A DNA stretch of 64,000 nucleotides from an uncultured Agrobacterium sp. (GTDB lineage Bacteria > Pseudomonadota > Alphaproteobacteria > Rhizobiales > Rhizobiaceae). Position numbers and translations under genes: made by a program. The stretch spans positions 62,001 to 126,000 of the forward strand of contig CAJYTK010000005.1 in the NCBI GenBank assembly GCA_913777615.1. The letters are read 5' to 3'. Every line of letters begins with the position of its first letter. Positions within the stretch are counted from its first letter, which is position 1. Shown here in pieces: positions 33,263 to 51,787 of this stretch. The notes below the pieces were generated by a model. That model saw only the letters and a list, made by a program, of their open reading frames with translations, was not told the DNA's origin and did no database searches.

Positions 33263-33682
33263 TTAAGCTGCCGTCTGGGAGATTTTGATGCCTTGTCCGA
33301 TCGCAATCGTCGCGCCCGTCGTCGTGTTGGCCGTTAGCCCTTCGGACGTGACTTCTACAGACTTAACGATGCCGCTCGTTTTGCCATCGGCGCTGGTGAT
33401 CGTCTTGCCGATGTAGGATGAGGCGTTTGAGAGAGACGAGGCTGAAATCAGGCTCTCCAGATTGGTATTCATCTTGATGGACTGCTCTACCTGCGAGAAG
33501 GTCGCAAGCTGCGCAACCTGCTGGCTCGGATCCATAGGATCGGTAGGGTCCTGGTTCTTCATCTGGGTGATGAGAAGCTTCAGGAAGTTGTCGTAATCGA
33601 GCGTCGCCTTCTTGGCATCCGTCTTCGATGCGGATGTTGCAGTGGTCGCTGTCGATGCAGAACTGGTGACTGGGTCTACCAT
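33263..33682 (-). CDS. flgD: Hook-capping protein FlgD (short form)
   Basis: A 139-aa scaffold for hook assembly. The N-terminal segment [20 protein letters not shown], then [20 protein letters not shown] is the FlgD signature. The C-terminal part is short ([20 protein letters not shown]) and lacks the Tudor/FnIII domains of the ~230-aa enterobacterial protein, as is usual in Rhizobiaceae. It overlaps flbT by seven bases. Confidence 0.93.
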
Positions 33683-34122
33683 GGCGCGATTTCCCTTCGC
33701 AGTTCGCTCACCGCCGCAGGCGTGATCTCATGGCTGTTGAGAATGCTTTCTTCCTTGGCGTAGAGACCGCGAATGGTCTTCAGCGCGTCAAAAGGACGGC
33801 CGGACGAAACCGTGGCATCGATCCGTTTCAATTCGGAACGAATTTCTTCGTTCTTGAAGGTGGCGAGCAGCATGGTGATCGACTTGCGGAAGAGTGTCAG
33901 CGACTGCTCCTTGCCTTCCGGATTGATCAGCATCATCTGCACGATGAAGTACAGCTGCCGCAGAGGTGTGGTCGTATCCTCAAGTTGAAGGACATGGTTT
34001 TCAAGAAGAAACGTCACATCGTTGAGGAATTCCAGGGACACTTTTCTATCGACCCGAAGTACGGCGCCGTTAATGAAGATTTTTTCCCCAGACTTCAAGG
34101 AAATCCGCAGTGTACTTTTCAT
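33676..34122 (-). CDS. flbT: Flagellin synthesis regulator FlbT
   Basis: A 148-aa protein matching Flb[58 protein letters not shown] and the C-terminal [16 protein letters not shown]. In Caulobacter, FlbT binds the 5' untranslated region of flagellin mRNA and limits its translation until the hook is finished; in Brucella it acts positively. It overlaps flaF by four bases and flgD by seven. A possible RNA target is the leader conserved in flaA, flaB and flaC here. Confidence 0.94.
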
Positions 34123-34466
34123 TTTAGTCCATCCTTGATGATGGTGGTGACGTCGATAATGCCCTGGTAGTTCGTAGAGTTACGCTTGCGTATCTGCTCG
34201 CATTCCTTGAGAATCCACATGGCGATGGAAATAAGGTTGGCTTTCAGTTCGACCGGCAGTTCATTCTCGGGTTGCCGGAGATCGTCAATGAAACGTGTCC
34301 AAACCCGCCTTGTGTAGAAAATGGCCTCAATGCCGTCCTTGCCATATCTGTCCTGCTGCTTGGCAATCTCCAAGAGTTCGATAGATCGCTCAAGGACCTG
34401 TCTTTCCCGGTCGCGGGCAATATGGGGGTCATCCTCCATGATCTCCGCATATGAAAACTGGAACAT
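34119..34466 (-). CDS. flaF: Flagellar biosynthesis regulator FlaF
   Basis: A 115-aa helical protein of the FlaF family ([60 protein letters not shown]). In Caulobacter FlaF is a secretion chaperone for flagellins that works opposite to FlbT; in Brucella the pair also acts in opposition. It sits between flgL and flbT, as in other alphaproteobacteria, with a 4-bp overlap to flbT and 54 bp from flgL. The genome type normally lacks FliS, and none was seen here. Confidence 0.94.
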
Positions 34467-45047: not shown

Positions 45048-46013
45048 TCAACCAAACAGACTGGCAAGGCTCTTTCGGAAGCTATTGGCCATCGAAACGA
45101 CTTCTACCGCCAAATCGCGTTGCGATTTATAGGCTGCCAGCCGGGTCGATTCTTCTTCCATATCCGCATCGACCAGACGGCTGACGCTCTTGTCCAATGA
45201 ATCGCCAAGTGCGCCCACGAAGGACTGCTGCTGGTCGATACGGTTGGACATGGTGCCGAAGGAGCTACCGAGACCCTTCAATTTAGCGGAAATTTCTCCA
45301 ACGACGGCAACCATGTCGTCGAGCTCTTCCTTCGTCGTGTCCGCCGAAATCGCGATTTCCTGGCCACCCGGCGGCGTCGTTCCATCGGGGCTCATCAGGT
45401 AGTAGTCACGGGACGCAGCCGTACCGTCGGGGTTGAGCGGGGATGCATCGATCACCCTGCTGAACAGACCGCGCGCCGGGTCGTTCGTGTCGATGAGCAC
45501 CGTTTCAGATGTCTTGATGCTGAGATATTGCAGACTGATCGACCCGTCAGGACCCTTTTTGTAAGAGAAGGGAACAGACTTGGTGTCGGTCAATTGGGGG
45601 GCGGTGTTGTACAGCCAGTTGTCGCCCGAAAACGATGCGGCCTGAGCCACGGACGCCAGGTTCTTCTTGAGTGCCGATATCGACCCATTGATCATCTCGC
45701 GATTGGTGCTCGGGTCATAGGCGGTGATCAACTGCGTCATGATCTTGTCGAGAACTTCAATCGACGAAGAGACGGCCTCATAGGCAGTATCCACCTTGGA
45801 CGCGCCAAGACTTAAAGCATCGCCGACGCTGCTTAAAACGCTACCCTCGGACTTCAGGTTCTTGGCGGTGGACCAGTACCCGGCATTGTCCGCAGCCTCG
45901 CCGATTTTCAACCCGCTGCTGGTGACCTTCTGAACCTTGTCCAGATTTTCATTGCTGAAAAGCAGTGTTTGAAGAGCGCTCTGCACATAGCCAGAGGTCA
46001 TGATTTTCGTCAT
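45048..46013 (-). CDS. flaD: Flagellin, divergent (FlaD-type)
   Basis: A 321-aa flagellin more distant from the other three. It keeps both D0/D1 arms: TSGYVQSALQTLLFSNENLD, KVQKVTSSGLKIGEAADNAG and YWSTAKNLKSEG at the N-terminus, and DSLDKSVSRLVDADMEEEST, LAAYKSQRDLAVEVVSMANS at the C-terminus. It starts with MTKIM rather than MTSILTN and ends in FG rather than FR. The start at 46013 is preferred over ATG 46043, which adds ten non-flagellin residues. Its leader lacks the CCGG/GTCCCT element of flaA-C. By analogy it is a minor filament component. Confidence 0.85.
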   Translation of the reverse strand: MTKIMTSGYVQSALQTLLFSNENLDKVQKVTSSGLKIGEAADNAGYWSTAKNLKSEGSVLSSVGDALSLGASKVDTAYEAVSSSIEVLDKIMTQLITAYDPSTNREMINGSISALKKNLASVAQAASFSGDNWLYNTAPQLTDTKSVPFSYKKGPDGSISLQYLSIKTSETVLIDTNDPARGLFSRVIDASPLNPDGTAASRDYYLMSPDGTTPPGGQEIAISADTTKEELDDMVAVVGEISAKLKGLGSSFGTMSNRIDQQQSFVGALGDSLDKSVSRLVDADMEEESTRLAAYKSQRDLAVEVVSMANSFRKSLASLFG

Positions 46014-46250
46014 GTCAGCAGTCTCGAGGCGAGTAAAACACATGCCATTTCTGGCGGATCGACCCCGTCGTCATGACAAGGCAAATAGCGGACCGGCTGC
46101 GGCATTCCAGGCAGAGCCTCTGACGGCTTGCGTGTAAAGACGGTTAAAAAAGCCAAGGCGAATCAAAAGATTGCCCAGTAGACCATCAAGCCATGATGAA
46201 ACTTGTGCGAAGCTGGAGACGTGGCCTTCGACCGATCTTGCCGCTTCAAT

Positions 46251-46288
46251 AACAAAGGCCGCGCTTTCCAGAAAACGCGGCCTTTGTT
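46251..46288 (-). terminator. Terminator downstream of flaC
   Basis: AACAAAGGCCGCG (46251-46263) and CGCGGCCTTTGTT (46276-46288) form a perfect 13-bp stem with a 12-nt loop. It starts 19 bp after the flaC stop on the - strand; the 3' side is T-rich. Confidence 0.75.
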
Positions 46289-46306
46289 CTGTTCTGGCGA
46301 AAGACT

Positions 46307-47182
46307 TTACTGGCGGAACAGGGTCATCAGGTTCTGCGAGCTGGAATTGGCGATCGACAGAGACTGGATTGCCAACTGTTGCTGTGTCTGGATGGCGGAG
46401 AGTTTTGCGGACTCTTCTTCCATATCAGCATCGACGAGGCGGCTAACGCCCGCCTCGATCGCATCCGACAGCTTGGCGGAATACTTGTCCTGGAGATCGA
46501 CGCGGATCTGCAGAGCGCCGAGTGCGGCGGCAGAGTCGGTCATTCTGCTGATCGCGGTTTCGACCGTGTCCATGAAGGTGTCGATCTGACCCTGCGTGGT
46601 GATGCTGGTCAACTGAATGGTCATGACGGCGCTGAGAATGCCGCCGCTGCCGACATTGTTGGCGATCGTTGCGAACAGGGCATAGGTTTCGACGTTGAAT
46701 GTCGCCGTCGTCACCTTGACCGTTCCGTCAGCTTCGCGAATGAAGCCGTCGACGACGCTGGCCTCCGTATTGGTCGATACCATCCAGTTTTCGCCGGAGA
46801 AGGAGGCACCTTGTGCGATGGCCGAAAGCTGCTCCTGAAGCTTGCCGATTTCGAGCTGGATCTGACCTTTGTCCGTCGACTTTTCACTGGCTGTTACCAG
46901 CTTTGCCTTGATTTCGTTGACCGCGCTAATGGCGCTTTCCATGGCCGCATAAGCCGTATCAACCTTCGCTGCGCCCACGCCAAGTGCGTCGGAGGCGGCG
47001 TTCAGGGCCTTATTGTCGGAATTCATCGTGGTTGAGATCGACCAATAGGCCACATTGTCCTTGGCCTGCGCGACCTTGTAACCTGAAGAAACACGGTCCT
47101 GCGTGTTGGACAGGGTGGTATTGATGTTGCGCAACGTCTCCAATGCGGACATAGCGGAGGTGTTGGTCAGAATGCTGGTCAT
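46307..47182 (-). CDS. flaC: Flagellin (FlaC-type)
   Basis: A 291-aa short flagellin: only D0/D1 plus a small insert, with no variable D2/D3. N-terminus MTSILTNTSAMSALETLRNI, NTTLSNTQDRVSSGYKVAQA; C-terminus EAGVSRLVDADMEEESAKLS, then QQLAIQSLSIANSSSQNLMT and LFRQ. The start at 47182 is chosen by homology to flaB; an upstream ATG at 47203 falls in the leader element. AAAGGGGC precedes the ATG by 8 bases. It has its own leader and terminator, so it is probably monocistronic. Confidence 0.93.
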   Translation of the reverse strand: MTSILTNTSAMSALETLRNINTTLSNTQDRVSSGYKVAQAKDNVAYWSISTTMNSDNKALNAASDALGVGAAKVDTAYAAMESAISAVNEIKAKLVTASEKSTDKGQIQLEIGKLQEQLSAIAQGASFSGENWMVSTNTEASVVDGFIREADGTVKVTTATFNVETYALFATIANNVGSGGILSAVMTIQLTSITTQGQIDTFMDTVETAISRMTDSAAALGALQIRVDLQDKYSAKLSDAIEAGVSRLVDADMEEESAKLSAIQTQQQLAIQSLSIANSSSQNLMTLFRQ

Positions 47183-47236
47183 CTTAAGTGGCCCCTTTGG
47201 CAATCTCTGGAAGAAGGGACATTCCGGTCAAGCCGG
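47183..47236 (-). promoter_or_regulatory. Conserved flagellin mRNA leader, flaC copy
   Basis: On the - strand: CCGG-N5-CCGG (47236-47224), then GTCCCT (complement of 47215-47220), 18 nt, then the Shine-Dalgarno AGGGGC (complement of 47191-47196). GUCCCU can pair with AGGGGC. The same order and spacing occur before flaB and flaA. Confidence 0.6.
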
Positions 47237-47440
47237 GAAACGCGTCGGATAGCTTCATGCCTACCGAACTGTGGGTTCGGTGCGCTGTTTCGATGAGCAC
47301 AGAAAACAGCTTTATGGTTAACAAACGTTTAAATGTAGGGAAGTTTTTACTTCAATGAACGCTACGTTAATGTGGGAGATCGACGTTAACTATCCCTAAT
47401 TATCTGATAATAATGGATATTTTTGTTTTTGACCAAAACG

Positions 47441-47468
47441 AAAAAAGCCGCGCTGACGCGCGGCTTTT
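47441..47468 (-). terminator. Terminator downstream of flaB
   Basis: AAAAGCCGCGC (47443-47453) and GCGCGGCTTTT (47458-47468) form an 11-bp perfect stem with a TGAC loop. On the - strand it ends in a T-run. It lies 18 bp after the flaB stop. Confidence 0.88.
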
Positions 47469-47485
47469 CATTAAAACGGAAGCGA

Positions 47486-48358
47486 TTAGCCTCTGAACAG
47501 CGACATGATGTTCTGCGAGCTGGAGTTCGCAATCGAGAGCGACTGGATCGCCAACTGCTGCTGGGTCTGCAATGCCGACAGGCGCGCGGACTCTTCTTCC
47601 ATGTTCGCATCCACCAGGCGGCTGACGCCAGATTCGATGGCATCCGACAGCTTGCTGGAGAACTTGTCCTGCATGTCGATACGTGTCTTCAGCGCGCCGA
47701 GGGCTGCCGCACCATTGGTCATCTTGCCAAGCGCCGTCTCGACGGTGTCGAGGAAGGTGTCGATCTTGCCTTGCGTGGTTACGCTGGTGAGTTCGATGGT
47801 CATGACAGCGCCAAGGATACCGCCACTGCCAACGCCGCCGTCGATGGTGGAGAACATGGCGTAGCTGCCAGCCTTGAAGCTTGCCGTATTGATCTTAACG
47901 GTACCGTCGCTTTCACGGATGAAGCCGTCGACAACTGTCGTGTTGGTGGTGTTCACCATCCAGTTTTCGCCGTTGAAGGATGCTGCCTGGCCGATTGCCG
48001 AGAGCTGTTCCTGAAGCTTTTTGACTTCAAGTTGGATCTGTTCCTTGTCGACCGAGGTTTCACTCGATGTGACGAGCTTCGCCTTGATTTCGTTGACGAC
48101 GTCAATAGCGCTGTCCATGGCGGCATATGCCGTATCGACTTTTGCAGCACCAACGCCCAGTGCGTCAGTCGCAGCGCCGAGGGCCTTGTTGTCGGACTTC
48201 ATGCTGGTGGAGATCGACCAGTAGGCAACGTTGTCCGACGCCTGCTCTACGCGCATGCCGGAGGAAACGCGATTCTGAGTGTCGGTCAGGTTGGAGTTGA
48301 TCGAGCGCAACGTCTGCAGTGCGGACATCGCGGATGAATTGGTCAGAATGCTCGTCAT
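47486..48358 (-). CDS. flaB: Flagellin (FlaB-type)
   Basis: A 290-aa flagellin. N-terminus MTSILTNSSAMSALQTLRSI, NSNLTDTQNRVSSGMRVEQA; C-terminus ESGVSRLVDANMEEESARLS, then QQLAIQSLSIANSSSQNIMS and LFRG. The stretch around SISTSMKSDNKALGAATDAL, GVGAAKVDTAYAAMDSAIDV is identical in the flaA product and nearly so in DNA, suggesting recent duplication or gene conversion. The start at 48358 is supported by GAGGGGC 7 bases upstream. It is an exported filament subunit with its own leader and terminator. Confidence 0.93.
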   Translation of the reverse strand: MTSILTNSSAMSALQTLRSINSNLTDTQNRVSSGMRVEQASDNVAYWSISTSMKSDNKALGAATDALGVGAAKVDTAYAAMDSAIDVVNEIKAKLVTSSETSVDKEQIQLEVKKLQEQLSAIGQAASFNGENWMVNTTNTTVVDGFIRESDGTVKINTASFKAGSYAMFSTIDGGVGSGGILGAVMTIELTSVTTQGKIDTFLDTVETALGKMTNGAAALGALKTRIDMQDKFSSKLSDAIESGVSRLVDANMEEESARLSALQTQQQLAIQSLSIANSSSQNIMSLFRG

Positions 48359-48411
48359 TAAAACTGCCCCTCTGGCAAGTATAAAAGAAAGGGACATTCC
48401 GGTTTTACCGG
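48359..48411 (-). promoter_or_regulatory. Conserved flagellin mRNA leader, flaB copy
   Basis: On the - strand: CCGG-N5-CCGG (48411-48399), GTCCCT (complement of 48390-48395), 18 nt, then AGGGGC (complement of 48366-48371), 7 nt, ATG. This matches the flaC copy exactly in order and spacing. Confidence 0.6.
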
Positions 48412-48576
48412 TAAACGACGTACAGCGTCATGCTCGCTGAGTGAACCTATTAACACTTCAGCCGTCGTTCTGATGAATTCATCTAACAACGTTAGGGTTA
48501 ACAACGGAATAATATATAATTAAAATAGGGTAAAAATAGAAATTAATCAGTTAATACGTTTTTAACTTGGGTTAAT

Positions 48577-48609
48577 AAAAAGAAAAGGCCAAGTCTTGCG
48601 ACCTGGCCT
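48577..48609 (-). terminator. Rho-independent terminator downstream of flaA
   Basis: On the - strand: AGGCCAGGTC-GCAA-GACTTGGCCT, a 10-bp stem with one G-T pair and a GCAA tetraloop, then TTTTCTTTTT. It starts 26 bp after the flaA stop. Confidence 0.9.
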
Positions 48610-48635
48610 CTTTAATATTCTCTTTACGGCTGAGC

Positions 48636-49505
48636 TTAACGGAAGAGCGAGAGAATGCTCTGCGAGCTGGAATTGGCAATCGACAGCGACTGGACCGCGA
48701 GCTGCTGCTGGGTCTGCAGTGCAGACAGACGAGCAGACTCTTCTTCCATGTTTGCGTCTACCAGGCGGCTGATGCCAGCGTCCATGGCATCGCTGATCTT
48801 GCCCGCGAACTTTTGCTGCAGGTCGATGCGGGTGGACAATGCACCGAGAGCAGCAGCGCCCTTGGTCAGGCTCTTCAGAGCGGTTTCGACAGTCGTCAGG
48901 AAGCCGTCGATTTTGCCCTGCGTTGCAGCGCTGGTGAGTGCAATGGTCATCACGGCGCTCAAGATGCCGCCGCTGCCAACACCGCCGGCGATCGTCGAGA
49001 ACATGGCATAGCTTGCAGCCTCGAAGTTCGCCGTGTTGATCTTGACGGTGCCATCGTCCTTGCGGATGAAGCCGTCGACAACCGTCGTCTTGGTGGCCGT
49101 GACCATCCAGTTTTCGCCGTTGAAGGATGCTGCCTGGCCGATAGCCGAGAGCTGTTCCTGCAGCTTCTTGACTTCAAGGTTAACCTGATCCTTGTCGACA
49201 GAGCTTTCGCTCGCCGTAACCAGCTTCGCCTTGATTTCGTTGACGACGTCGATGGCGCTGTCCATCGCAGCGTAAGCCGTATCGACCTTTGCAGCACCGA
49301 CGCCCAGCGCGTCAGTCGCGGCGCCGAGCGCCTTGTTGTCCGACTTCATGCTGGTGGAGATCGACCAGTAGGCAACGTTGTCCTTGGCAGATCCGACCTT
49401 GAGGCCAGAGGAAACGGCGTTCTGGGTAGTGTTCAGTTTGCTGCTGACGTCACGCAGGGTCTGAAGTGCAGCTGTAGCGTTTGCATTGAAGTTGATGCTA
49501 GACAT
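48636..49505 (-). CDS. flaA: Flagellin (FlaA-type, probable principal subunit)
   Basis: A 289-aa flagellin. N-terminus MSSINFNANATAALQTLRDV, SSKLNTTQNAVSSGLKVGSA; C-terminus DAGISRLVDANMEEESARLS, then QQLAVQSLSIANSSSQSILS and LFR. In rhizobia with several flagellins, the FlaA type is the essential one and the others are secondary; that is carried over by analogy. It has its own leader and a strong terminator. The Asn/Ser/Thr-rich surface could be a substrate for the GT41 enzyme encoded just upstream. Confidence 0.93.
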   Translation of the reverse strand: MSSINFNANATAALQTLRDVSSKLNTTQNAVSSGLKVGSAKDNVAYWSISTSMKSDNKALGAATDALGVGAAKVDTAYAAMDSAIDVVNEIKAKLVTASESSVDKDQVNLEVKKLQEQLSAIGQAASFNGENWMVTATKTTVVDGFIRKDDGTVKINTANFEAASYAMFSTIAGGVGSGGILSAVMTIALTSAATQGKIDGFLTTVETALKSLTKGAAALGALSTRIDLQQKFAGKISDAMDAGISRLVDANMEEESARLSALQTQQQLAVQSLSIANSSSQSILSLFR

Positions 49506-49558
49506 GATTGCCCCTTTTTTACGAAATACATGAGAGGGACATGCCGGATTTCACCGGC
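49506..49558 (-). promoter_or_regulatory. Conserved flagellin mRNA leader, flaA copy
   Basis: On the - strand: GCCGG-N6-CCGGC (49558-49543), GTCCCT (complement of 49535-49540), 19 nt, then AGGGGC (complement of 49510-49515), 4 nt, ATG. The remaining non-coding 49559-49864 should hold the divergent promoters; nothing further is recognised there. Confidence 0.6.
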
Positions 49559-49864
49559 GTAAACGGTTCGGCATCATGCCACTCGGGTCCATTTTCTGAA
49601 GGACACCAAACCCGTCACGTGACGATGAAAATGGCCCCCAAGCATTTCGAACTTCTTAATTTGACCCGTTGAATGCCCAGTTCCGGGGGCTACAGTTAAC
49701 GTTGTGTGAACGGCTTGAAACGGATCTCGGGGCAGCACTCACGCTTTCCCGTTTCGAGCAAGGTTCATCCTGTAGGGTCGGTTGAATTTTCTATTCGCCG
49801 CAGATCGGTCAGCACCCCGGGTGGTGCCTTCCGAGATGTCGAGCAAGAGGACGCAACGGACCCA

Positions 49865-51787
49865 ATGTTAAACGAAATCAGCTATTCGGCCGCTTCCAAG
49901 CATTTCAAGACGGGACGCTACACAGAAGCGCTGACGACGTTGAACCGGCTGATGGACACGAACCGGGATGCCCGCACCTATGCATTGCTGGCGAAAACGC
50001 TGCTTCAGCTTGGACTGAAGGAACAGGCCGCCACGTCCTACGAACTTGCCTACCAGCAAAACGGTCTCGATGCCGAAACCTACCTGGTCGAGAGCATCAA
50101 GCTGTTTTACGAATGCGGCGAGAAAGACAAGGCTCTGGCCCTTTCCAACCGGCTCATTCACCGGTTCCACAAACATCTGGACGTGGCCTACATCGTAGGA
50201 TCGCTGCTGCTGGAGCGTGGCGAAAACCGCATTGCCCGGACGTTGAAGACGATCCTGATGAAGAGCGAGAATATCGAGCATATCAAGCTCGGCGCCCGCA
50301 TCGCGATCACCACTTGGGATCTTTTCGATCCAAGCGATATCGACACCGCCCGCGTTCTCCTGTCGAGATTGCCGCACAACAATCCCGTGCGCCTGATGTA
50401 TCTGGTGTTTAGCCGCGAACACAGCAGGTTCGACAATATCGAGAAACATCAGCCGATCATCGATGCGGCCGTGGCAGCAGGCGATACGTCTTTCGTTTCG
50501 CTCGACGGCACCTTCTTCAATCTACACTGGAGCGGAGACGAGTATATCAACCAGCTGGCGCGCTCCAACACGCCAGACTTCAGCCCCGATATGACCGCAA
50601 GGCGTCGGGCAATGCCACATGAGTGGGGCAAGAAGATCCGCGTCGGTTACCTATCGTCGGACTTCTTCGACAAGCACGCCACGATGAAGTTGATCCGCCG
50701 CGTTCTGGAACTGCATGACCGCGATCGTTTCGAAATCACGCTCTTTTGCCACTCCGACGAGGCATTGCTGAAGACAAACGAGGCCGACCGAAGCCTGTGG
50801 GGCGACGTCGTGACCATTCGCGATATGACGAACGAGGAAGCGCACGCAGAAATGCGCGCACGCAACATCGATATCATGGTCGACCTGAAGGGACATACGG
50901 CCGGCAACCGGACCTCTATCCTCAATATGGGCGCTGCACCCATTCAGGTGGCGTGGATCGGTTTTCCCGGGTCGGTCGTCAATATCGATCTGGATTACGC
51001 CATCGGCGACCATTATGTGCTGCCGGAAAGCTCCAAGCCCTTCTATCATGAAAAGTTCGTTCGCCTCCCGGAAACCTATCAACCGAATGATCCGCTCAAC
51101 CGTCCGTTGGCAAAGCAGGTCAGCCGTGCGGATGTCGGCCTACCGGAAGATGCCTTCGTCTTCGCCTCTTTCAACGCCAACCGCAAGATCACGCCACGCG
51201 TCATCGAACTGTGGTGCGATATCCTGAAGAAGACGCCGAACAGCGTGATCTGGGTGTTGCATAATAGCCAGGTGAGTGCGGTCAACATCATGAAGAAGTT
51301 CACCGAAAGCGGCATTTCTGCCAAGCGCGTGTTCCTCATGGGCAAGCTGGATTTCGAACTCCATCTCAACCGTATTACGGCAGCGGATCTCGGTCTCGAC
51401 ACCTTCCCGGTCAATGGCCACACGACGACGTCCGAACAGCTTTGGTCCGGCTTGCCTGTCCTGACAGTCAAGGGCACGAATTTCGCCTCGCGGGTCAGCG
51501 AAAGCCTGCTGAATGCCATCGGCACGCCCGAACTCATTGCCAGCGACGAAGAAGAGTATGTGAGACAGGCCGTATTCTACGCGCAGAACCCGGACAAGCT
51601 GAAGGAGGTGCGCGACCGTATCGCGGACAACCGTTTCGTCACGCCGCTCTTCGACGCTGAACGCTTCTGCCGTCATCTGGAGACCGCCTATGAAATGATG
51701 GTGGAACGGGCCAAGCAGGGCGACGAGCCGGATCATTTCGATGTGCCGGCACTGCCAAAACGCGAAACTCCCTTCCTCGATCGGTAA
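49865..51787 (+). CDS. GT41 (O-GlcNAc transferase-like) glycosyltransferase with TPR-like N-terminus
   Basis: A 640-aa protein. An N-terminal helical-repeat region (~1-250; SYSAASKHFKTGRYTEALTT, LAKTLLQLGLKEQAATSYEL) resembles TPRs. The catalytic domain follows the OGT order: RVGYLSSDFFDKHATMKLI near 259 with the His at the catalytic-base position, VDLKGHTAGNRTSILNMGAA and PIQVAWIGFPGS, FNANRKITP near 436, and FPVNGHTTTSEQLWSGLPVL near 515, then ASRVSESLL. Such enzymes attach sugars to Ser/Thr. It is divergent from the flagellin genes, like the flagellin glycosyltransferase FlmG of Caulobacter in concept. ATG 49865 is chosen over 49706, whose extra 53 residues are low quality. Confidence 0.82.
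   Translation: MLNEISYSAASKHFKTGRYTEALTTLNRLMDTNRDARTYALLAKTLLQLGLKEQAATSYELAYQQNGLDAETYLVESIKLFYECGEKDKALALSNRLIHRFHKHLDVAYIVGSLLLERGENRIARTLKTILMKSENIEHIKLGARIAITTWDLFDPSDIDTARVLLSRLPHNNPVRLMYLVFSREHSRFDNIEKHQPIIDAAVAAGDTSFVSLDGTFFNLHWSGDEYINQLARSNTPDFSPDMTARRRAMPHEWGKKIRVGYLSSDFFDKHATMKLIRRVLELHDRDRFEITLFCHSDEALLKTNEADRSLWGDVVTIRDMTNEEAHAEMRARNIDIMVDLKGHTAGNRTSILNMGAAPIQVAWIGFPGSVVNIDLDYAIGDHYVLPESSKPFYHEKFVRLPETYQPNDPLNRPLAKQVSRADVGLPEDAFVFASFNANRKITPRVIELWCDILKKTPNSVIWVLHNSQVSAVNIMKKFTESGISAKRVFLMGKLDFELHLNRITAADLGLDTFPVNGHTTTSEQLWSGLPVLTVKGTNFASRVSESLLNAIGTPELIASDEEEYVRQAVFYAQNPDKLKEVRDRIADNRFVTPLFDAERFCRHLETAYEMMVERAKQGDEPDHFDVPALPKRETPFLDR

Follow-up and report, generated by a model that had tools for sequence, protein, structure and literature searches.

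In alphaproteobacteria, it has long been unclear at the RNA level what delays the late flagellar genes until hook completion. For Caulobacter, a FlbT-dependent 5′-untranslated region (UTR) of a flagellin mRNA was reportedly described by Anderson and Gober in 2000. According to reports, FlbT of this organism binds to the 5′-UTR of flagellin mRNA (PMC7591256, PMC3930126, PMC4347634) and, together with the flagellin FljJ, acts as a translational repressor until export (PMC7591256), and FlbT of Brucella was described as enabling flagellin production. Also, the flg-Rhizobiales RNA (RF01736) was listed as a structured leader by Weinberg 2010 (PMC2864571), and for the serC leader of alphaproteobacteria (RF00517) a hairpin sequestering the ribosome binding site (RBS) was proposed in A. 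tumefaciens (PMC1273637). Here, we analyzed a stretch of 64,000 nucleotides (nt) from an uncultured Agrobacterium sp. of the family Rhizobiaceae, order Rhizobiales (assembly GCA_913777615.1, contig CAJYTK010000005.1, positions 62,001 to 126,000; the whole stretch is called the window), in which the flagellin genes flaA, flaB and flaC share a leader element. Judged from its covarying helices and its constant position ahead of genes of a single functional class, this leader is a structured cis-regulatory RNA. It represents a new order-wide leader family with a likely RBS lock, not matched in Rfam.

In the window, the minus strand encodes four flagellins, with the ATG of flaA at 49505, of flaB at 48358, of flaC at 47182 and of flaD at 46013. 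In a preliminary description of the window, a CCGG hairpin, GTCCCT and the Shine-Dalgarno (SD) sequence AGGGGC had been noted in this order before flaA, flaB and flaC. The three motif sets proved exact in position (Table 1; flaA hairpin GCCGG-TGAAAT-CCGGC), as did the claimed spacers of 18–19 nt between GTCCCT and AGGGGC (19 nt in flaA, 18 nt each in flaB and flaC). The complete motif is present in three copies in the window vs none in 100 shuffled windows, and GTCCCT-N15-30-AGGGGC in three copies vs a shuffled mean of 0.09. CCGG-N4-7-CCGG alone is weak evidence because it is common in both the window (36 copies) and the shuffles (14 copies), while CCGG-N4-7-CCGG-N-ATGTCCCT has three copies genome-wide, all within the flaA/flaB/flaC region of the window. 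However, these motifs represent only the 3′ half of the leader; the 5′ half with P0, P1 and P1b had been overlooked. The whole leader of about 115 nt consists of a long helix P0 around the hairpins P1 and P1b (GC-AUGAN-GC), the CCGG hairpin P2, and then GUCCC, which is able to pair with the SD sequence to form P3.

For comparison, 267 leaders were extracted from the window and 73 flagellin loci (best 80 of 434 relatives); 20 of the 267 leaders were without the GCATGA anchor. In most leaders of the flaA/B/C type, the inverted repeat P1 is followed in order by RGCATGANGCY (P1b), the CCGG hairpin P2, ATGTCC and an SD sequence in the form AGGGGC, AGGGAC or GGGGAC. The loop of P1b is almost always CAUGAN-G. 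P1 is constant in position and variable in sequence (GTTAACC/GGTTAAC, GCCGA/TCGGC, ACCGAAC/GTTCGGT and others); in 247 leaders, the stem that ends at RGCATGA had a mean length of 6.55 base pairs (bp) vs 4.87 bp in shuffled sequences and 5.02 bp in a segment further upstream, a contrast which is no probability because the leaders are related. P0 is formed between the sequence upstream of P1 and that preceding P2, for instance as AACGACG/CGTCGTT in flaB, CGAGAGG/CCTCTCG, TGGCGG/CCGCCA, or ATAGTAGA/TCTACTAT in distant genomes. Its mean score in 278 leaders was 18.1 vs 14.4 with the upstream stretch shuffled, the shuffle controls for P0 and P3 preserving single-base composition only.

Covariation was analyzed in several alignments, in which changing pairs were counted without a tree and independent events were not separated. 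Alignment A6 was made structure-blind with MAFFT from 30 of 35 leaders, five having been dropped due to unclear P0/P1; its selection favours P0 because the leaders were hand-trimmed at the P0 start. In A6, 85.8% of the cells pair and 15 of 25 pairs vary on both sides, including all five pairs of P0. The observed values were attained by none of 500 shuffles for any of five measures, and slid structures reached at most 54.2% paired cells and a covariation score of at most 0.150 vs the observed 0.285. By a G statistic with average product correction, two P0 pairs and one P1 pair ranked 1, 3 and 4 among 5,605 column pairs, while ranks 2 and 5 were outside the structure. In the model-fitted, order-wide alignment A8 (best 150 of 203 matches, 149 distinct rows, only one chemoreceptor leader), 19 of 25 pairs vary on both sides, the covariation score is 0.376, with slid structures not exceeding 0.090, and the eight highest-ranking of 6,290 column pairs all belong to the structure. 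Outer pairs of P1b are seen there as G-C, G-U and A-U. Since the CCGG core of P2 is nearly invariant in A8, the evidence for this helix comes from its closing pair and from divergent genomes (L201 and L202), in which the P2 stem was seen by eye with different letters. An order-only alignment (A7) misplaced the SD sequence and was hence unused.

To cover further genomes, two covariance models were used, R2 with the flaA, flaB and flaC leaders in its seed and the smaller R1; E-values of both are rough because the calibration was short. In the own genome (E ≤ 1, 150 of 1,418 candidates scored), R2 found four sites, namely flaB, flaA, flaC and C5:153144-153245 (E 2.6e-6). Two weak R1 matches (L122 and L124) are inside coding sequence, were not reported by R2 and were rejected. 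Among 101 genomes of the family, the element was found in 81, flagellin in 83 and FlbT in 84; all three were found together in 80 and none of them in 16. The element was thus matched in 80 of the 83 flagellated genomes sampled and FlbT in all 83, and in this family, which includes plant symbionts, the covarying element offers defined bases to mutate and a probe for a trans-factor. Flagellin and FlbT occur without the element in three genomes (G034, G082 and G095), and FlbT alone in one (G036); in G082, GGCATGATGCC and P2 are still visible by eye despite the missing model match. Genome G098 has an element match (E 3.9e-5) with neither flagellin nor FlbT detected, which may be due to chance, an incomplete assembly or a relic.

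All 29 best-scoring R2 loci of the family are located at a flagellin start, 27 according to tblastn and the other two (L178 and L176) at contig ends, the assignment of L176 being made by an adjoining Pfam match. R1 matched 29 of 150 genomes of the order (counted irrespective of flagellin), five of them from the window's own family. Of 29 loci inspected here, three (L148, L150 and L152) were away from flagellins; the other 26 were situated at the start of a flagellin gene, 21 of them in genomes from nine other families of the order. A search of the class with stricter filters comprised 190 genomes, i.e., the own genome, two of the same order and 187 of other orders; in the latter, which perhaps do not include Caulobacter, no convincing R2 match was found. 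The sole match outside the order, in G478 (E 3.7e-5), precedes a gene resembling a dehydrogenase and is apparently due to chance. A loose pattern search matched 176 of 199 family genomes and was uninformative, as by eye the reversed control pattern gave comparably large counts.

The proposal of a conserved RNA leader containing a helix able to sequester the RBS is supported, and the complementarity between anti-SD and SD exceeds chance (alignment A4, the leader-wise P3 test and the window shuffles). Alignment A4 comprises 125 distinct rows from the best 150 of 233 matches, and pairing is seen in 99.9% of its P3 cells. At the second pair, U-G occurs in 97 rows, U-A in 26 and C-G in two, with C-A in none; at the sixth, U-A occurs in 98, C-G in 26 and another combination in one. 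Thereby, the compensatory changes expected in relatives were partly found for GUCCCU/AGGGGC; the CCGG core is nearly fixed. In A8, 93.4% of the P3 cells pair, with U-A in 74, U-G in 72 and C-G in three of 149 leaders at the second pair. In the P3 test, which was independent of the model, 178 distinct leaders (from 271 parsed of 285; one failure, L038, is a parsing error) were scored for an uninterrupted helix of 6 bp or more joining the 11 nt that follow P2 to the RBS region of 17 nt. Among distinct leaders of the flaA/B/C type, 98 of 108 allow such a P3 (16% shuffled), as do 35 of 37 leaders from a second genome set including other genera of the family (11% shuffled), while flaD-type leaders allow it in just three of 33 cases (11% shuffled).

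Where GUCCC is lost, the GGGAC/GGGGC form of the SD sequence is lost as well (L151, L154, L079, L087, L090 and L105); in L151 and L154, GUCAAAA and AAGGTA are present in place of anti-SD and SD. The second-locus Rhizobium flagellins L079, L087, L090 and L105 also fail the 6-bp test. By eye, second-locus flagellins in some Rhizobium (L070, L079, L083, L087, L090 and L105) have lost the anti-SD as well as the SD sequence GGGGC but still carry P2 and the motif of P1b. When single sequences were folded at 28 °C with an assumed 5′ end, P0, P1, P1b, P2 and P3 all formed unaided in flaB, P3 with a probability of 0.98–0.99. At the flaB RBS, a possible competing hairpin TTGCC-AGAGG-GGCAG (48378-48364) would exclude P3, and an alternative RBS hairpin GCC..GGGGC is present in 44 of 148 leaders.

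The flaD leader had been described as lacking the element. GUCCCU and AGGGGC are indeed absent and no significant R2 match was obtained there, but two hairpins are retained by eye: a P1b-like GUC-AUGAC-GAC (46078-46067), at which R2 gave a non-significant fragment of 1.0 bit, and a P2-like GCCA-GAAA-UGGC with AUGU directly after it (46055-46044). The coordinates of all features are summarized in Table 1.

Table 1. Features of the flagellin leaders and candidate trans-factor genes in the window
Feature	Position	Strand	Evidence and remarks
flaA leader element, P0 to just beyond start codon	49498..49619	-	R2 match 71.3 bits, E 8.2e-17; sequence in model seed
flaA P0 5′ strand GTGACGG	49612..49618 (49618-49612)	-	pairs with CCGTTTAC
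flaA P0 3′ strand CCGTTTAC	49559..49566	-	pairs with GTGACGG, one bulge, by eye
flaA P1 hairpin region	49582..49611	-	inverted repeat, R2 match
flaA P1b GGC-AUGAU-GCC	49570..49580	-	R2 match; pair changes in other genomes
flaA P2 hairpin GCCGG-N6-CCGGC	49543..49558	-	motif and R2 match
flaA anti-SD GUCCCU (P3 5′ strand)	49535..49540	-	motif, alignment
flaA SD AGGGGC (P3 3′ strand)	49510..49515	-	P3 pair probability 0.43-0.45
flaB leader element	48356..48469	-	R2 match 72.7 bits, E 3.7e-17; sequence in seed
flaB P0 5′ strand AACGACG	48463..48469	-	pairs with CGTCGTT 48420-48414; also folding
flaB P0 3′ strand CGTCGTT	48414..48420	-	pairs with AACGACG; also folding
flaB P1 hairpin	48436..48462	-	inverted repeat, single-sequence folding
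flaB P1b AGC-AUGAC-GCU	48424..48434	-	single-sequence folding
flaB P2 hairpin CCGG-N5-CCGG	48399..48411	-	motif, single-sequence folding
flaB anti-SD GUCCCU	48390..48395	-	motif; pair probability 0.98-0.99
flaB SD AGGGGC	48366..48371	-	motif, folding
flaC leader element	47180..47289	-	R2 match 51.5 bits, E 8.8e-12; sequence in seed
flaC P1 ACCGAAC-CCACA-GTTCGGT	47263..47281	-	inverted repeat
flaC P1b GGC-AUGAA-GCU	47251..47261	-	R2 match
flaC P2 hairpin	47224..47236	-	motif and R2 match
flaC anti-SD GUCCCU	47215..47220	-	motif
flaC SD AGGGGC	47191..47196	-	P3 pair probability 0.09 (single-sequence folding)
flaD possible remnant, P1b-like and P2-like, without anti-SD/SD	46044..46078	-	by eye
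flbT, candidate trans-factor	33676..34122	-	Pfam PF07378, E 1.1e-41
flaF	34119..34466	-	Pfam PF07309, E 3.3e-31

The fourth R2 site of the own genome was outside the model seed and precedes a gene for a methyl-accepting chemotaxis protein (MCP) with a protoglobin domain; after this gene, a response regulator, a CheA-type kinase and CheR are encoded. The reading frame of this chemoreceptor (L161:9928-11829, contig C5, minus strand) is open through the whole leader element and the Protoglobin match starts at residue 116; because of the open frame, its start is liable to be called too far upstream by gene callers. Ten further sites in ten other genera all precede an MCP homologue; they are no random sample because the loci were chosen for their distance from fla genes. 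All 11 leaders of chemoreceptor genes retain P2, but GUCC after P2 was seen by eye in none of them, and 5 to 7 of them have gaps in the P3 columns. The 5′ domain without a clear P3 before a chemoreceptor gene that precedes che genes therefore looks like a shared tag of late motility genes, and the element may tie chemotaxis genes to the same control as the flagellins. The contrast between chemoreceptor and flagellin leaders is the best evidence that GUCCC is retained for the SD sequence.

We consider it probable that the flagellin leader is a structured cis-regulatory element with a 5′ receptor domain and with P3 as a translation lock, which is set by a binder or remodeller, the trans-factor being FlbT with a flagellin partner. 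The receptor domain would comprise P0 around P1 and the AUGAN hairpin P1b, plus P2. The GUCCC just after P2 would pair with the SD sequence, thereby holding off translation, and a factor binding or remodelling the 5′ domain would decide on P3 formation. The data show the conserved structure, where it is placed and the complementarity for P3, which most flaD-type leaders lack; repression by P3, a change between its states and, after the Caulobacter model, FlbT with a flagellin partner as the trans-factor are what we infer. A more far-reaching version can be put forward only tentatively: P0–P2 would be the tag of an order-wide late-motility RNA regulon, an FlbT-flagellin complex would read flagellin and chemotaxis messages, and P3 would be present where a lock is needed; flaD, with at most a degraded tag and no lock in its leader, would come first as an FljJ-like checkpoint flagellin, and its export would release the others.

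The chemoreceptor leaders, which retain P0–P2 without a clear P3, would also suit an mRNA stability leader, in which the 5′ hairpins protect the transcript or target it to an RNase and P3 is a by-product. Caulobacter FlbT was also reported to promote flagellin mRNA decay (PMC4347634). We nevertheless regard such a leader as unlikely, as it leaves the GUCCC/SD complementarity of the flaA/B/C-type leaders (98 of 108) and its coordinated loss unexplained. A protein-free switch responding to a ligand or to temperature, with the 5′ domain as riboswitch aptamer or P3 as thermosensor, would agree with the arrangement of several helices in one domain ahead of a helix sequestering the RBS and with the nearly constant P1b loop. 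This seems rather improbable, since the gene context hints at flagella and chemotaxis only, the sequences of P0 and P1 are free, and the chemoreceptor copies are without clear P3. In line with lowered flagellar and chemotaxis proteins reported for an A. tumefaciens hfq mutant (PMC4201532), GUCCC or the SD sequence could be the pairing site of a trans-encoded small RNA (sRNA), or a target of Hfq; we give little credence to this, because pairing inside the leader accounts for the conservation without a partner and covariation in P0 and P1 is unneeded for sRNA sites. Inverted repeats downstream of a TTAACC box and the CtrA motifs predicted by Schluter 2013 at flaA, flaC and flaD of S. meliloti (PMC3616915) would fit palindromic transcription factor sites on the DNA, but it is very hard to reconcile with these that P0 and P1 vary yet stay complementary, with G-U intermediates and variable loop length, and that P3 joins to the SD sequence.

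Several results weigh against a translation lock set by FlbT and its partner. P1 pairs in just 67.3% (A6) and 78.8% (A8) of cells, the low value in A6 being partly due to a register of P1 that differs between groups in the alignment. P3 pairs vary mainly on one side by G-U changes, with few isolated cases otherwise, and the change of the sixth pair from U-A to C-G may trace to few events. Order-wide, this sixth pair is broken in 48 of 149 leaders (A8), so that the common core of P3 is GUCCC/GGGAC. In single-sequence folding, the probability of P3 was only 0.43–0.45 for flaA and 0.09 for flaC. Also, the agrobacterial median 5′-UTR of 61 nt (PMC10469942) is shorter than the flagellin leader. Concerning the trans-factor, FlbT was detected in Caulobacter as a control, yet the 187 genomes of other orders are without a convincing R2 match. 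A motility screen of A. fabrum found flbT and flaF (PMC9812332), and the finding of flbT among genes required for motility better fits an activator, as in Brucella, than a plain repressor. In 42 genomes (43 chosen non-randomly, G036 dropped), the element score correlated with FlbT (rho 0.61), FlaF (rho 0.69) and FlgD (rho 0.57), with a partial r of 0.13 (p 0.40) for FlbT given FlaF and of 0.41 (p 0.007) for FlaF given FlbT; because common descent was uncontrolled, these correlations are evidence for neither FlbT nor FlaF as ligand.

The preliminary description correctly placed flbT in the window (Table 1), where flaF is encoded as well. FlbT or FlaF had been proposed there as ligand of a switch that would couple flagellin synthesis to hook completion; beyond shared divergence, no comparison singled out either of them. 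Among the 83 flagellated genomes, FlbT scores were weakest in precisely the three that lack the element (partial r 0.40 given the flagellin score); a link specific to FlbT was set aside, as FlaF and FlgD diverge in parallel. As to transcription starts, the main text of an agrobacterial differential RNA sequencing paper (PMC10469942) gives no flagellin start. In S. meliloti, the promoter motif TTTGTTAACCAT was found de novo at a distance of up to 40 nt before start sites (PMC3616915). The minus strand of the window has a single copy of this motif, upstream of flaC (47325-47314), and by analogy the flaC start would lie at about 47313 to 47285, upstream of or inside the 5′ strand of P0. TTAACC boxes precede many flaB-type genes; together with TTTGTTAACCAT at flaC, they suggest a shared late-motility promoter.

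In Rfam 15, no family matched the window at the gathering score, and at E ≤ 10 the region 45900-49900 gave weak matches far under the cut-offs, none of them to a flagellar family. A literature search of titles and opening abstracts, with supplementary files and most subscription papers outside its scope, gave no description of the flagellin leader. In the sRNA papers PMC7717549 and PMC3927594 (Bartonella, Rhizobiales), flagellar terms were found in one reference title and not at all, respectively. The element would constitute a new Rfam family.

Like the element described here, RF01736 is a structured leader before a flagellar gene in this order, but it carries two hairpins with GGGA loops. 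It did not match in 45900-49900 (E ≤ 10), in 14 loci or in 61 family genomes (E ≤ 0.001), and it matched 18 of 150 genomes of the order, three of them above the cut-off. Matches under the gathering score reach families beyond the one scoring above it. The downstream genes look like what we take to be flgF, judged by eye from the first residues. In L107, L110, L111 and L115–L118, the two hairpin loops with UUGGGAGA resemble the own SD sequence AAGGGGAG, possibly an SD mimicry and thus the opposite of the flagellin lock. The CsrA-FliW system involves a protein and an RNA motif unrelated to the element described here. On the flaA mRNA of Campylobacter, it shares with the element that flagellin is controlled post-transcriptionally at the leader (PMC4894983). 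The serC leader RF00517 belongs to another gene and has another structure, and the five elements named in the abstract of PMC1273637 are non-flagellar.

The FlbT-dependent 5′-UTR of Caulobacter differs in that no homologous RNA was convincingly matched in the 187 genomes of other orders (Caulobacter perhaps not included), in that the element described here also precedes a chemoreceptor gene, and in that FlbT binding would here be an analogy. As far as the Caulobacter system is described in the sources cited above, both have in common the post-transcriptional control, here proposed, at a flagellin leader, an encoded flbT and the late motility genes concerned, which makes the flagellin leader element the obvious candidate for an FlbT site in the order.

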